Part shown: positions 17,026 through 21,778 of the stretch, piece after piece
Layout of the letters: every line of letters starts with the position of its first letter
How positions within the stretch are numbered: position 1 is the first letter of the stretch
Source: Aequorivita sp.
GTDB lineage: Bacteria; Bacteroidota; Bacteroidia; Flavobacteriales; Flavobacteriaceae
Length of the DNA: 53,779 nucleotides
Reading direction: 5' to 3'
Assembly (NCBI GenBank): GCA_024637015.1
Contig: JAGXGE010000016.1
Span: 1-53,779, forward strand
Made by a program: the position numbers and the translations under genes
Notes under the pieces: generated by a model
The model's database searches: none
Seen by the model: only the letters and a program-made list of their open reading frames with translations
What the model was told of the DNA's origin: nothing

Positions 17026-17108
17026 ACCCGGGTGCTGGAATTGGTAGACAGGCATGGTTGAGGGCCATGTGTCCTTAGGGCGTGTGGGTTCAAGTCCCAT
17101 TCCGGGTA
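17026..17108 (+). tRNA. tRNA-Leu (anticodon GAG)
   Basis: An 83-nt class II tRNA: acceptor ACCCGGG/TCCGGGT with discriminator A, anticodon stem CATGG/CCATG with loop TTGAGGG (anticodon GAG, reads CUU/CUC), a long variable arm (TGTCCTTAGGGCG) and T-arm with TTCAAGT. CCA is not encoded. I see no clear promoter between it and the tRNA-Lys terminator. Confidence 0.95.
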
Positions 17109-17121
17109 CAAATTTTATTTA

Positions 17122-17155
17122 ACTGTTTAAAGAATTTATCATTTTTATAAACAGT
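17122..17155. promoter_or_regulatory. Putative operator upstream of the MerR/B12 regulator
   Basis: The inverted repeat ACTGTTTA (17122-17129), 18 bp, TAAACAGT (17148-17155). The core TGTTTA-N18-TAAACA has exactly the same half-sites and spacing as the repeat in front of crtI. Probable binding site of the regulator encoded next to it (autoregulation); inference from shared geometry. Confidence 0.6.
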
Positions 17156-17204
17156 ATTCACTTCTTTTTAGTACATTAACCCAATATTTTAAAAAAATTC
17201 TTCT

Positions 17205-18107
17205 GTGGTCAAAAATCAATTTGGCATTAAAGATCTTGAAAATCTTTCAAACGTTAAAGCTCATACCATTAGGATTTGGGAGAAACGGTACAACCTTCTT
17301 GAACCGGATCGTACTGATACTAACATTAGGAAGTACGATCTTGAAAACCTAAAAAAGTTACTGAATGTTGCCTACCTATATAATGCTGGGCATAAAATTT
17401 CAAAAATTGCAAGCTTAGACGCATCAGAAATTCAAGCGTTGATTAAAAAAAATATCAACGGGCTTGATTCTGAATATGTGCTCAATATATTTAAATCGGC
17501 AATGTTTGAGTTTGACGGGGATCTTTTTGACGATACGCTTGAAAAACTTTTAGAAAAGAAATCGTTTAGAGAAGTTTTTTCGGAAATATTCGTGCCCTTG
17601 CTTAATGAAATGGGTATTCTCTGGCATTCTGGAACTATAGACCCTTCTCATGAACATTTCATTTCAGAAAAGATAAAGCATTCTATAATCGTGCATTCAG
17701 CAAATCAAAAAGGAAATATTTCAGAGAAAAATCAACAAATATTTTCCCTTTATCTTCCTTATCAGGAAATTCATGAAATTGGCTTGCTGTATGCAAACTA
17801 TGAACTTGTTTCAGCAGGGTTTAACACAATATTTTTAGGAGCTAATATTCCTTTGGAAAGTTTAATACATGTGCTTAAAACTAAAACTAAAATTATTTTT
17901 GTAGCCTATTTTACTGTCCGTCCAGAAAAAGACAATTTTGATAAGTATCTTGAAGATTTTCAGAGTGAGGTATGTACGAAAGGTCCATGTGAATTATGGA
18001 TTCTGGGGCGTAAGGTTGGAAAAAACACTAAGAACACTAAAAACGTAAAATTTTTCAAAGACATAAAACAATTCACAGATCAAATTGACAATGGGTTAAA
18101 AATCTGA
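17205..18107 (+). CDS. MerR-family regulator with B12-binding domain (CarH/LitR-like)
   Basis: A 300-residue probable light-responsive transcription factor. An N-terminal MerR winged helix (6-75: IKDLENLSNVKAHTIRIWEK) is followed by a helical B12-cap region with W140-x9-E150-H151 and a Rossmann-like cobalamin domain with E188-x-H190-x-x-G193. In CarH proteins these two signatures hold adenosylcobalamin: the tetramer represses carotenoid genes in the dark and falls apart in light. The start is GTG; the next in-frame ATG lies inside the cap domain. It stands directly upstream of crtI, in the same orientation, with matching palindromes before both genes. The function is inferred from motifs and context. 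Confidence 0.88.
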   Translation: MVKNQFGIKDLENLSNVKAHTIRIWEKRYNLLEPDRTDTNIRKYDLENLKKLLNVAYLYNAGHKISKIASLDASEIQALIKKNINGLDSEYVLNIFKSAMFEFDGDLFDDTLEKLLEKKSFREVFSEIFVPLLNEMGILWHSGTIDPSHEHFISEKIKHSIIVHSANQKGNISEKNQQIFSLYLPYQEIHEIGLLYANYELVSAGFNTIFLGANIPLESLIHVLKTKTKIIFVAYFTVRPEKDNFDKYLEDFQSEVCTKGPCELWILGRKVGKNTKNTKNVKFFKDIKQFTDQIDNGLKI

Positions 18108-18217
18108 TATTTAGACCCTTGAATAATATCTTATAAAACGTAAGTATACTCCCCGGTTAAATGTTATTCACAAAAACTATATAACAATATAAAAATAGAT
18201 TCTGCAAATCTCTTTTT

Positions 18218-18249
18218 TTGTTTAAATAAAATGTAAATTTGTTAAACAA
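18218..18249. promoter_or_regulatory. crtI promoter and overlapping operator palindrome
   Basis: TTGTTTAA (18218-18225), 16 bp, TTAAACAA (18242-18249), directly before the crtI ATG (18251). The core is TGTTTA-N18-TAAACA, as upstream of the regulator. The -7 box TAAATTTG (18234-18241) lies inside the spacer, and no -33 box sits at the normal distance. A repressor on the palindrome would cover the promoter. Confidence 0.65.
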
Positions 18250-18250
18250 T

Positions 18251-19714
18251 ATGAAGAAAATTGCGATTATAGGTTCTGGTTTTTCGTCGCTTGCTGCTTC
18301 TTGCTATTTGGCCCAAGCAGGAAACAATGTAACCATTTACGAAAAAAACCAAACCATTGGCGGAAGGGCCCGACAGTTCAAAAAAGATGGTTTTACTTTT
18401 GACATGGGTCCTACGTGGTACTGGATGCCTGATGTTTTTGAACGTTTTTTTAAAGATTTCGGTAAAGTTCCATCAGATTTTTATGAACTGGAAAAACTAA
18501 ATCCCGCCTACCGTGTTTACTTTGGAACGGATGATTATATAACTATTGAAGATACTCTCGAAAAGATATGTACCGCTTTTGAAAAGGAAGAAGCTGGAAG
18601 TTCAGTAAAACTTCGCAAATTTATGGCCCAAGCCTTGGATAACTATAATATTGCCATTAAAGATTTGGTATATAGACCAGGTGTTTCCCCTTTGGAATTG
18701 GTTACAGTAACCACAATGAAAAAGATTGGCCAGTTTTTCAGCACCATAAGTAAAGACGTTCGCCGTGAGTTCACCAATCCAAAATTGATTTCAATTTTAG
18801 AATTCCCCGTTTTGTTTTTAGGAGCAAAACCTTCGAATACGCCTGCTTTTTATAGTTTTATGAACTATGCAGATTTTGGTCTAGGTACTTTTCACCCAAA
18901 AAAAGGAATGTATTCAGTAATTGAAGGAATGAAAAATCTCGCCGAAAAACTTGGTGTAAAAATAATGACCAATCAAAATGTTGAAAAGATAAATATAGAA
19001 AATGGAAAAGCTAATGCCCTCATTATAAATGGTGAAAAAATCGAGGCAGATATAATTTTAAGCGGCGCAGATTATCATCATACAGAAACACTTTTGGATA
19101 AAAAATTCCGACAATATTCCGAAAACTATTGGGAAAAGAAAACCTTTGCCCCTTCTTCTCTGCTATTTTATGTTGGTTTTGACAAAAAAATTGAAAACGT
19201 AGATCACCACACCTTGTTTTTTGATGTGGATTTTGAAAAGCATTCACAAGAAATATACGATTCACCGCAATGGCCGAATGACCCACTTTTTTATGCGAGC
19301 TTTCCTTCAAAAACAGATAAAAGTGTTTCCCCGGAAGGGAAGGAAGCTGGCATTTTTTTAATTCCTTTAGCACCCGGATTAGATGATATTCCGGAAATAC
19401 GAGAAGAATATTTCGAAAAAATAATAGAGCGTTTTGAAAAAATTACCAACCAAGAGGTTAAAAAATACGTTATATTTAAAGAATCCTTTTGCATCAATGA
19501 CTTCATGTCTGACTATAATAGCTATAAGGGCAATGCCTATGGGCTAGCAAATACATTGATGCAAACTGCTTTTCTAAGACCAAAATTAAAAAGTGGTAAG
19601 GTGAAAAATCTATTTTTCACTGGACAGCTTACCGTACCGGGACCGGGAGTTCCGCCAGCCCTTATCTCTGGAAAATTGGTGGCTGGTTTAATCGAAAAAG
19701 ACAACAAAAATTGA
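18251..19714 (+). CDS. crtI: Phytoene desaturase
   Basis: A membrane-associated FAD enzyme that desaturates phytoene stepwise to lycopene. In 487 residues it has the N-terminal dinucleotide-binding motif IAIIGSGFSSLAASC, the IGGRARQF segment following it, and the C-terminal CrtI signature TGQLTVPGPGVPPALISGKL. ATG 18251 (MKKIAIIGSG) is preferred over an in-frame TTG at 18239, which overlaps the -7 box. The stop codon overlaps the crtB start. First gene of the carotenoid operon. Confidence 0.94.
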   Translation: MKKIAIIGSGFSSLAASCYLAQAGNNVTIYEKNQTIGGRARQFKKDGFTFDMGPTWYWMPDVFERFFKDFGKVPSDFYELEKLNPAYRVYFGTDDYITIEDTLEKICTAFEKEEAGSSVKLRKFMAQALDNYNIAIKDLVYRPGVSPLELVTVTTMKKIGQFFSTISKDVRREFTNPKLISILEFPVLFLGAKPSNTPAFYSFMNYADFGLGTFHPKKGMYSVIEGMKNLAEKLGVKIMTNQNVEKINIENGKANALIINGEKIEADIILSGADYHHTETLLDKKFRQYSENYWEKKTFAPSSLLFYVGFDKKIENVDHHTLFFDVDFEKHSQEIYDSPQWPNDPLFYASFPSKTDKSVSPEGKEAGIFLIPLAPGLDDIPEIREEYFEKIIERFEKITNQEVKKYVIFKESFCINDFMSDYNSYKGNAYGLANTLMQTAFLRPKLKSGKVKNLFFTGQLTVPGPGVPPALISGKLVAGLIEKDNKN

Positions 19715-20553
19715 AAGAGCTTTTTGACATAGTTTCCAAAGAATGTAGCAAAAAGGTTACTGAAACCTACAGTACATCCTTTTCGTTGGCAACCCGCATG
19801 CTGGGTCCGTCCATTCGACAAGACATTTATAATATTTATGGTTTTGTTCGTTTTGCTGATGAAATTGTGGATTCGTTTCATTATTACAACAAAGAAGTTC
19901 TTTTCAGTCGCTTTGAAAATGCTATGGAAGAAGCATTACTAGATCGCATAAGTCTCAACCCAATTTTAAATTCTTTTCAAGATACAGTTTACAAGTACAA
20001 TATAGATAGAGCGCTTATAGATACATTTATGTCCAGTATGCGTATGGACCTGACCAAAAGCGTTTATTCAACAACAGAAGAATTTAATGAATATATATAT
20101 GGTTCTGCAGACGTCGTGGGTTTAATGTGTTTAAAAGTTTTTGTTAAAGGTGATGCTGAAAAATACAACCAACTGAAAGAATCTGCTATGAATTTGGGGT
20201 CGGCATTTCAGAAAGTGAACTTTTTACGTGATCTGAAAGAAGATTATGAAAACTTAAGCCGAACATACTTTCCAAATACCAATTTAGATTCTTTAGACGA
20301 AGAATCCAAAGCTAAAATCATCCAAGAAATTGAAGAAAACTTCAACCACGGATATCAAGGTATTCTGCAATTGCCACACGATGCAAAGCTCGGTGTTTTT
20401 GTAGCCTATAGATATTATAAGCGTTTATTGAAAAAACTACAACATACGCCTGCAAAAGAAATTAAAAATGCCCGAATACGGGTCCCTAATGTTGAAAAAA
20501 TCGGACTTTTAACACGTAGCTACGTAAAATATCAATTAAATTTGGTAAAATAA
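19711..20553 (+). CDS. crtB: Phytoene synthase (TTG start)
   Basis: Joins two geranylgeranyl diphosphates into phytoene, the first committed carotenoid step. The 280-residue protein has YSTSFSLATRML, the first Asp-rich motif DEIVD at 50-54 and the second, NFLRDLKEDYE, with D174 and D178. Both are needed for magnesium-diphosphate binding. The start is TTG 19711, overlapping the crtI stop in TTGA; the next in-frame ATG is codon 30, inside the conserved core. Translational coupling with crtI is likely. Confidence 0.94.
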   Translation: MKELFDIVSKECSKKVTETYSTSFSLATRMLGPSIRQDIYNIYGFVRFADEIVDSFHYYNKEVLFSRFENAMEEALLDRISLNPILNSFQDTVYKYNIDRALIDTFMSSMRMDLTKSVYSTTEEFNEYIYGSADVVGLMCLKVFVKGDAEKYNQLKESAMNLGSAFQKVNFLRDLKEDYENLSRTYFPNTNLDSLDEESKAKIIQEIEENFNHGYQGILQLPHDAKLGVFVAYRYYKRLLKKLQHTPAKEIKNARIRVPNVEKIGLLTRSYVKYQLNLVK

Positions 20554-20620: not shown

Positions 20621-21070
20621 ATGACAACGGTTCTTTGGATAATAATTTTCATTGCCACTTTCTGCATTATGGAATTTATGGCTTGGTTTACACATAAATA
20701 CATTATGCATGGTTTTCTATGGAAACTCCACAAAGACCATCACCACAAAGATCACGGGAGTTGGTGGGAGCGTAATGATTACTTTTTTATTTTTTACGCA
20801 TTGGTCAGCATTAGTTGCTTTGTGGGATGGAGTTATTTTGGCTTTTGGGCTGGGCTGCCCATCGGACTTGGTATTTTTGCATATGGTGTTGCCTATTTTT
20901 TCGTGCACGACATTTTTATTCACCAACGCTTTAAAATGTTCCGAAATGCCAACAATTGGTATGCACGAGGAATAAGACGTGCGCATAAAATTCATCATAA
21001 GCATTTAGGAAAAGATAAAGGCGAATGTTTTGGAATGCTTTTTCCGCCGTTGAAATATTTCAAAAAATAA
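20621..21070 (+). CDS. crtZ: Beta-carotene hydroxylase (CrtZ type)
   Basis: A di-iron membrane hydroxylase that adds 3-hydroxyl groups to beta-carotene rings, giving zeaxanthin. The 149 residues carry the expected histidine boxes: HKYIMH (25-30), HKDHHH (37-42), HDIFIH (about 91-96) and HKIHHKH (about 127-133), with four hydrophobic segments between. Three bases separate it from the lycopene cyclase gene. The length suits a minimal CrtZ rather than a larger sterol desaturase. Confidence 0.92.
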   Translation: MTTVLWIIIFIATFCIMEFMAWFTHKYIMHGFLWKLHKDHHHKDHGSWWERNDYFFIFYALVSISCFVGWSYFGFWAGLPIGLGIFAYGVAYFFVHDIFIHQRFKMFRNANNWYARGIRRAHKIHHKHLGKDKGECFGMLFPPLKYFKK

Positions 21071-21073
21071 GCT

Positions 21074-21778
21074 ATGTGGCATCTTTATCTATTGCTGGAC
21101 ATAGCCTCAATCAGTGTTCCTTTTCTTTTTAGTTTTCACCCAAAGTTGAAGTTTTACAAACTTTGGATTTTTTTTATCCCCGCCACCTTTATAATGATGG
21201 CTTTTTTTATACCCTGGGACATCATTTTCACACAGAACGGCATTTGGGGATTCAATGAAAAATATCTTTCGGGAATTAAATTGGCGAAATTACCTTTGGA
21301 GGAATGGCTTTTCTTTATTTGTATTCCCTATGCATGCCTTTTTACAATTTATGCATTTAAAAACTTACTTCCGAAGTTTTCATTCTCAAATAAAACAACA
21401 GCGATAGTTTACTTTTCCTTACAAACCATTTTGATCGCCTCTCTGCTCTATTTTTACGATCGTTGGTATACGGCGGTAAATTTTGGATACGCTATTGTTT
21501 TACTGGCCTTGGTTTTCAATTATAAACGCGAGACTCTGAATGTTTTCTTTCCAGTTTTCCTGATTCTTTTGATACCTTTTTTTATTGTGAATGGATTCCT
21601 AACTGGCAGCTGGATTCACGAAGAAGTAGTTTGGTACAATAATACAGAGAACCTAGGAATACGAATTGGCACTGTACCCATTGAGGACAGTATTTATGCA
21701 TTGGGAATGTTGCTTACTATTTTTGTTTTAATGGAAAAATTCAAAGAAAAATATTCTTCCAAACCAATCGATTCATAA
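21074..21778 (+). CDS. Lycopene beta-cyclase, fused CrtYc-CrtYd type
   Basis: Closes both ends of lycopene to give beta-carotene. The 234-residue, seven-helix membrane protein contains two related halves: the first has PLEEWLFF (about 75-82) and the second PIEDSIY (about 205-211). In heterodimeric lycopene cyclases these motifs lie on the separate CrtYc and CrtYd chains; here both are on one chain. The gene follows crtZ by three bases and completes the zeaxanthin set. Confidence 0.88.
   Translation: MWHLYLLLDIASISVPFLFSFHPKLKFYKLWIFFIPATFIMMAFFIPWDIIFTQNGIWGFNEKYLSGIKLAKLPLEEWLFFICIPYACLFTIYAFKNLLPKFSFSNKTTAIVYFSLQTILIASLLYFYDRWYTAVNFGYAIVLLALVFNYKRETLNVFFPVFLILLIPFFIVNGFLTGSWIHEEVVWYNNTENLGIRIGTVPIEDSIYALGMLLTIFVLMEKFKEKYSSKPIDS

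Follow-up and report, generated by a model that had tools for sequence, protein, structure and literature searches.

A wide inverted repeat, TGTTTA-N18-TAAACA, stands before a gene for a MerR-type regulator and again before crtI in a stretch of Aequorivita sp. DNA of 53,779 bases (the window), and on our best reading these copies represent a conserved operator and light regulon of the Bacteroidia, a larger finding than the one first noted. It is very probable that the CarH/LitR-type MerR regulator whose gene lies between the two copies (Table 1) uses the palindrome as its operator, and probable, at a lower level of confidence, that this regulator responds to light. We found no earlier account of the motif in the literature searched, outside which most subscription papers lay.

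Table 1. Features of the regulator and carotenoid locus in the window.
Feature	Position	Strand	Description
tRNA-Leu (GAG), directly 5' of first palindrome	17026..17109	+	Neighbour, outside the system
Palindrome TGTTTA-N18-TAAACA (30 bp), 5' of regulator gene	17124..17153	.	Proposed autoregulatory operator; all 13 named related loci have it exactly
CarH-like regulator, 300 aa, GTG start	17205..18107	+	MerR winged helix, PF02607 B12-binding four-helix domain, ExHxxG motif
Palindrome TGTTTA-N18-TAAACA (30 bp), over crtI promoter	18219..18248	.	Ends 2 bases 5' of crtI ATG
-7-type box TAAATTTG in crtI palindrome (site bases 16-23)	18234..18241	+	24 of 28 exact sites 3' of carH share this register (15 of the 28 not independent)
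crtI-like phytoene desaturase	18251..19714	+	Amino_oxidase, PF01593
crtB-like phytoene synthase, in crtI gene run	19711..20553	+	SQS_PSY, PF00494
FA_hydroxylase-family gene, crtZ-like by position	20621..21070	+	FA_hydroxylase family match and position
Lycopene cyclase	21074..21778	+	PF18916

The sequence-only reading had described two copies with identical hexamers and identical spacing, and this was borne out, the spacer being 18 bases in both; its 8-bp arms, ACTGTTTA/TAAACAGT and TTGTTTAA/TTAAACAA, were likewise correct as read from the sequence. The judgement that two such copies are improbable by chance agrees with our counts, since 0.01 exact matches were expected and none of 100 dinucleotide shuffles gave two. 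The window holds these two exact matches and no others even when one mismatch is allowed, a tolerance at which 0.62 matches were expected and 15 shuffles had at least two. Used as a search key for a regulon, as had been proposed, the exact pattern returned 11 copies in the whole genome (3.22 Mb, 39 contigs) against none for the reversed control pattern, and none of the 11 lies within an ORF of at least 90 aa; the scatter through coding regions that had been raised as a counter-indication is not seen. Over spacers from N4 to N32, N18 is the single favoured one, with 11 of the 31 palindromes and, as counted from the list of hits, at most four for any other spacer, while the reversed control gave 26 in all. 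With up to one mismatch the excess in this genome is small (46 versus 25 for the control), thus the hexamers seem to be strictly read; one-mismatch sites, considered as a broader regulon, were too noisy for use.

The crtI copy does enclose a -7 box, as had been claimed, and the promoter likewise appears to be without a properly spaced -33 box: a -33 TTG is expected 17-23 bases 5' of a -7 box, and none was seen at that distance from the -7-like box. The box is of the TA..TTT(G/A) type, which is the flavobacterial -7 element by the consensus quoted in an excerpt of PMC3587595. A box of this type occupies site bases 16-23 in 24 of 28 exact sites 3' of carH, 15 of which come from the genus itself or the named related loci and are hence not independent; of the 13 crtI-side sites outside that group, 11 show a slightly looser -7-like box, which on the gene strand always begins at base 16. 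Because the operator, with the box inside it, runs to two bases short of the ATG, the crtI transcript should be almost leaderless, a prediction drawn from this arrangement.

Conservation in related crt loci had been suggested as a check, and both the carH and the crtI sites are exact in all 13 named loci (12 from Aequorivita and one from another member of the Flavobacteriaceae), with the palindrome at -32 from the start codon of crtI and, in the genus, at about -80 from that of carH. In 29 further family loci, which are best matches and not a random draw, the carH site is present at 11 or more of 12 positions in 21 (7 exact) and the crtI site in 16 of 26 located crtI genes (12 exact); at least one of the two was found in 27 of the 29. 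Locus L015 has an exact site 3' of carH, where our script did not locate crtI, and L037 is the one among these 29 with no site at 11/12, its best being 10/12. Ten of the 21 carH sites (L028, L029, L031, L033, L034, L036, L038, L039, L040 and L042, all at 11/12) have a right half with one mismatch that overlaps the start codon (ATGAACA), and these are weaker evidence because coding sequence may explain the match; N27 hits at the same sites do arise from coding sequence. Hexamer inverted repeats of any sequence, at spacers of 4-30, were tallied across 28 family loci without reference to the motif; TGTTTA-N18 and its shifted forms came out on top, in 15 loci, and the next unrelated repeat reached 2. 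At the class level, where 29 best-matching carH loci were compared, an exact site lies within about 1.5 kb in 17 and is absent from 12; of the 24 loci from other families, 14 have an exact site.

Besides the carH-like gene and the crtI operon, sites in the same genome precede thyA, a TetR gene followed by an ABC1 kinase gene, and a gene for a 560-aa oxidoreductase that is the second CrtI-like protein. The site at folE (GTP cyclohydrolase I) stops six bases 5' of the ATG, and another lies upstream of a same-strand run made up of an SRPBCC-like gene (named by eye), a short-chain dehydrogenase gene and a photolyase gene; several of the 11 sites, those of the photolyase run and folE among them, precede genes for which a role in light response is known or plausible, which is what the proposed genome scan had been meant to look for. 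One site is shared by a FAS1 protein gene and, on the other side, a gene for a CMAS-type methyltransferase, 329 bp across, and at another a second FAS1-like gene faces a gene for an M28 peptidase. A further site heads a run of a 54-aa ORF, DUF2452 and DUF2805; the thyA site has a 121-aa ORF on its opposite side; and a second site directly after the ABC1 kinase gene lies 240 bp 5' of a KAS III-like gene (named by eye). For thyA, the M28 peptidase and the KAS III-like gene a light role is not evident. Both thyA (L010:5065) and folE (L005:5177), which belong to folate and pterin synthesis, adjoin sites, and these are perhaps tied to the antenna cofactor of photolyase.

We then considered 66 exact sites from 12 genomes, namely this one and the first 11 of the genome list, the sites beside carH being excluded in the 11 others and scored separately. 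Sixty of them lie outside ORFs of at least 90 aa, and two of the six inside are both sites of genome G059. In the regulator-bearing genomes an ORF of at least 45 aa starts within 150 bp and reads away from 52 of 64 sites, a count taken without a random control. The commonest cluster of neighbours consists of FAS1 (fasciclin) genes (L008:5107-5682, L007, L091, L092, L095 and others), with 14 site entries at 12 loci, the Pfam assignment having been run on one; by analogy with algal AstaP, a carotenoid-binding role is conceivable. Among the publications listed on fasciclin and carotenoids, microalgal AstaP and other carotenoproteins predominate, and none carries a flavobacterial term. Further neighbours are a CrtW-like ketolase gene, a TspO-like gene and a proteorhodopsin gene facing blh, and another run is composed of folE, DUF2805-like, dehydrogenase, TspO and SRPBCC-like genes. 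In L090, L097 and L108 a photolyase/cryptochrome-family gene stands 5' of the site on the same strand, rather than 3', and in L108 a DPRP photolyase-related gene also precedes the site. The SRPBCC-like gene has an exact site within 1.5 kb upstream in 5 of 30 loci, a poor test because the sites of L090, L097 and L108 precede an earlier gene of the run. Three of the 60 sites outside ORFs (L093:3083, L101:3025 and L119:3064, from three family genomes) are false positives that belong to one near-identical repeated element (...GTGTTTAAGCACCTAATTTAGC...) and not to promoters; this element had no Rfam match.

Enrichment of the palindrome follows, on average, the presence of the regulator gene, both in the family and elsewhere in the class. 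The 111 of 149 family genomes that carry a strong orthologue have a mean of 5.35 sites versus 1.25 for the reversed control, whereas the remaining 38 (9 with weak B12-type homologues, 4 with a MerR domain only and 25 with none) have 1.32 versus 1.11, a difference with a Mann-Whitney p of 6e-14 when related genomes are counted as independent. There are exceptions on both sides, with two sites or fewer in 13 of the 111 and at least three in 7 of the 38, including G079 (81% complete) and G147 (73% complete). Outside the family (192 genomes; class counts cover 197 of 198 genomes, with the own genome omitted), the 112 genomes with a homologue, from 40 families, have 2.31 sites versus 0.85 for the control, and the 80 without one have 0.72 versus 0.97 (p 3e-13, related genomes again counted as independent).

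The same counts bear on a different owner for the site, a TetR-family protein (TetR_C_23) with a site at its own gene (G000:C36:3813), in which case the CarH-like gene would merely co-occur. TetR-type dimers classically bind palindromes, the TetR gene adjoins 8 of the 66 sites, CarH-positive genomes have 5.94 sites with it and 3.32 without it, and nine genomes that have TetR and no close CarH orthologue still show 2.78 sites versus 1.00 for the control (2.00 versus 0.67 in the six more complete ones, completeness classes having been assigned by hand from listings). However, six of these nine do have a homologue of the regulator, weaker and of B12 type; G059, with TetR and no regulator match, has its two sites inside ORFs; and every one of the 13 named loci has a site at the carH gene. 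The 25 genomes with a CarH-like gene and no TetR keep the excess (3.32 versus 1.04), which weakens the case for TetR, and the 29 with neither gene have 0.86 versus 1.14. We therefore regard ownership by TetR as improbable and retain the CarH-like protein as the candidate regulator.

To our knowledge, no transcription factor has been proposed before for proteorhodopsin in this phylum. The rhodopsin query had no match in the own genome; it matched 31 family genomes (best matches), from which 27 promoters were scored, the unscored ones being G067, where the script gave no upstream sequence, and the weak matches G104, G132 and G017. The N18 site is exact in 12 of the 27 promoters and present at 11/12 or better in 18, compared with 0 and 0.23 in dinucleotide shuffles. 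Regulator-bearing genomes contribute 21 promoters, with 11 exact sites and 15 at 11/12 or better, leaving 6 of the 21 with none at 11/12; the 6 promoters from genomes with no close orthologue include 1 exact and 3 at 11/12 or better, and those three genomes are 73, 81 and 86% complete. In one of these, G055 (86% complete), the site is at -122, off the usual place, the nearest sites in proteorhodopsin promoters being generally at -38 to -55 from the start codon. Fourteen of the 18 promoters have a gene-strand -7-like box whose first letter falls on site base 14-16 (base 15 in 12 of them), a register close to that of crtI (base 16). A study of Dokdonia, in the portion available, states that proteorhodopsin regulation in flavobacteria needs further work and describes constitutive proteorhodopsin expression in one strain (PMC3587595), so that control by light may not be the rule in all of them.

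The regulator matches CarH-type PDB chains by sequence (best E 8e-10), and its closest named relatives are 12 Aequorivita records with 78-92% protein identity, followed by one record from another member of the Flavobacteriaceae at 69%. The MerR DNA-binding domain (PF13411) is found in all 35 aligned orthologues, and the recognition helix RIWEKRY is invariant among them, with one R to K change relative to the RxWERRY of CarH. Intactness of Wx9EH, the motif that contacts the adenosyl group, is a CarH criterion in the sections available of PMC9304148; the window protein has it intact (W140, E150, H151), and over the orthologues W and E are kept in 35 of 35 and H in 22 of 35. The same source gives the full B12 motif as D/ExHx2G-x41-SxT/V-x22-27-GG. 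Its E and lower-axial histidine are present in 35 of 35 orthologues, and S, as the column was placed, in 25 of 35, the window protein having A there; the C-terminal part is degenerate, the second G of GG being found in 2 of 35, and PF02310 was reported for none of the 35 at E 0.01. The NCBIfam CarH equivalog NF052513 scored 63.7 bits, below its cut-off of 400. The earlier label "CarH-like" is thus apt as to kind, but it does not extend to CarH itself given this score and an operator unlike those of the studied CarH proteins, and we place the regulator as a variant of the CarH/LitR kind, outside CarH proper, because two tested CarH features are lacking. An adenosyltransferase (PF01923) is encoded in the own genome and in 137 of 149 family genomes; the near-complete G008 and G064 gave no match in that search, yet keep the regulator and the sites (8 versus 0 for the control in G008 and 6 versus 0 in G064). 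Adenosylcobalamin dependence is therefore uncertain, or else the cofactor may be taken up or made by another enzyme, and we lean only slightly towards adenosylcobalamin as the light sensor of the regulator. Genome G064 also carries a proteorhodopsin gene with an exact site.

The CarH proteins of Thermus, Bacillus megaterium and myxobacteria (class I LitR, adenosylcobalamin-dependent photoreceptor-repressors) share with the window regulator the RxWE(K/R)RY MerR helix, PF02607, Wx9EH, the ExHxxG histidine and a neighbourhood of crt genes, as well as the TnnACA half-site and an operator that lies over promoter elements. Operators of CarH are tandem 11-bp repeats, nnnnTnnACAn, in which TnnACA is bound (PMC9304148, in part). 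The half-site TAAACA fits this element, but its two copies form an inverted repeat across 18 bases; the regulator also differs from CarH in having no GG of the B12 motif and in a larger, dispersed regulon. A direct-repeat operator was not found: triples of tandem TnnACA repeats are absent from 113 promoter regions, in which doubles numbered 3 versus 1.68 when shuffled. CarA of Myxococcus xanthus, a B12-independent paralogue, is described in the same source as having an inverted-repeat operator on which two dimers bind cooperatively. By that description it resembles the present case, where sites are paired in some promoters, although CarA has no Trp in Wx9EH and here this Trp is kept in 35 of 35 orthologues.

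The class II LitR proteins of Pseudomonas (PplR1-3, PmlR2) are likewise repressors, with photolyase, folE, their own gene and a short-chain dehydrogenase nearby; PMC9758184, as far as available, lists photolyase, folE, a cryptochrome-like protein and the regulator gene as the light-inducible set, and says that these proteins retain only the four-helix bundle. When that set was compared with our genome, with no control gene set, the regulator's own gene, folE and the photolyase run had a site upstream. The class II system differs in its consensus, T(G/A)TACA-N12-TGTA(C/T)A, with another half-site and spacer, and in its partner, a short LOV protein; we rejected this consensus as the site, as its best match in the 113 promoter regions was 10/12 (4 regions) and none reached 11. 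MliR, a flavobacterial MerR-like regulator, is without an effector domain according to an excerpt of PMC9478572 and hence a different protein. Two reviews that name CarH (PMC9614035, PMC12627116) had no mention of "Bacteroid-" in their available text.

These comparisons also bear on the idea that some other dimeric regulator of stress or light owns the site and that carH is one target of its regulon. The targets are compatible with a photo-oxidative stress regulon too, and a wide inverted repeat is not the known form of CarH operator; against this, the half-site matches the TnnACA element of the CarH family, the recognition helix is invariant, and of the two regulators compared it is the CarH-like gene whose presence tracks the site more closely, so that we hold such an owner to be unlikely. 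That the repeat is instead a promoter or structural feature (an alternative sigma site, an AT-rich chance match or a transcript hairpin) is very improbable, for although it keeps a fixed register with a -7-like box at crtI and proteorhodopsin, lies in AT-rich DNA, and related Dokdonia has a second RpoD of uncertain promoter specificity (PMC3587595), its distance to the start codon varies from gene to gene, regulator-lacking genomes have no mean excess of sites and shuffled proteorhodopsin promoters gave no exact match.

As an operator of the CarH-like regulator, the palindrome would work as follows. A dimer or higher oligomer of the regulator would, in darkness, contact two outward-facing TnnACA half-sites (TTAAACA), and with the inverted repeat over or next to the -7 box, the bound protein would block RNA polymerase; light would release it, probably through photolysis of adenosylcobalamin. 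Such light-relieved repression agrees with the register of the -7 box. In this way the regulator may repress the carH-like gene itself and the crt operon, along with a light regulon scattered over the genome (photolyase, folE, FAS1 and the TetR-ABC1 kinase genes), and in rhodopsin-bearing relatives also proteorhodopsin and blh. It is somewhat more probable than the contrary that the system is Bacteroidia-wide, with a CarH-like photoreceptor-repressor that acts at a wide, in places paired, inverted repeat and directly switches proteorhodopsin and blh together with carotenoid genes, photolyase, pterin synthesis and FAS1, in some lineages maybe without adenosylcobalamin. With the regulator named, its proposed operator defined to the base and the targets listed, the control of flavobacterial proteorhodopsin becomes directly testable.

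The CarH half-site in an inverted and wide layout is also relevant to the assembly of CarH-type proteins on DNA. Twenty distinct pairs of sites lie within 120 bp and include an exact site; the start-to-start distance is 40-45 bp in 15 of them, and among pairs in which both sites are exact it is 41-44 bp in 8 of 11 (52, 54 and 64 bp in the others). Such spacing is near whole helical turns, which suggests that regulator oligomers could sit side by side on paired sites. The pairs of about 42 bp (41-44) are those of L095, L122, L136, L209, L214, L215, L219 and L221, and the rarer distances of 52, 54 or 64 bp occur in L212, L199 and L216.
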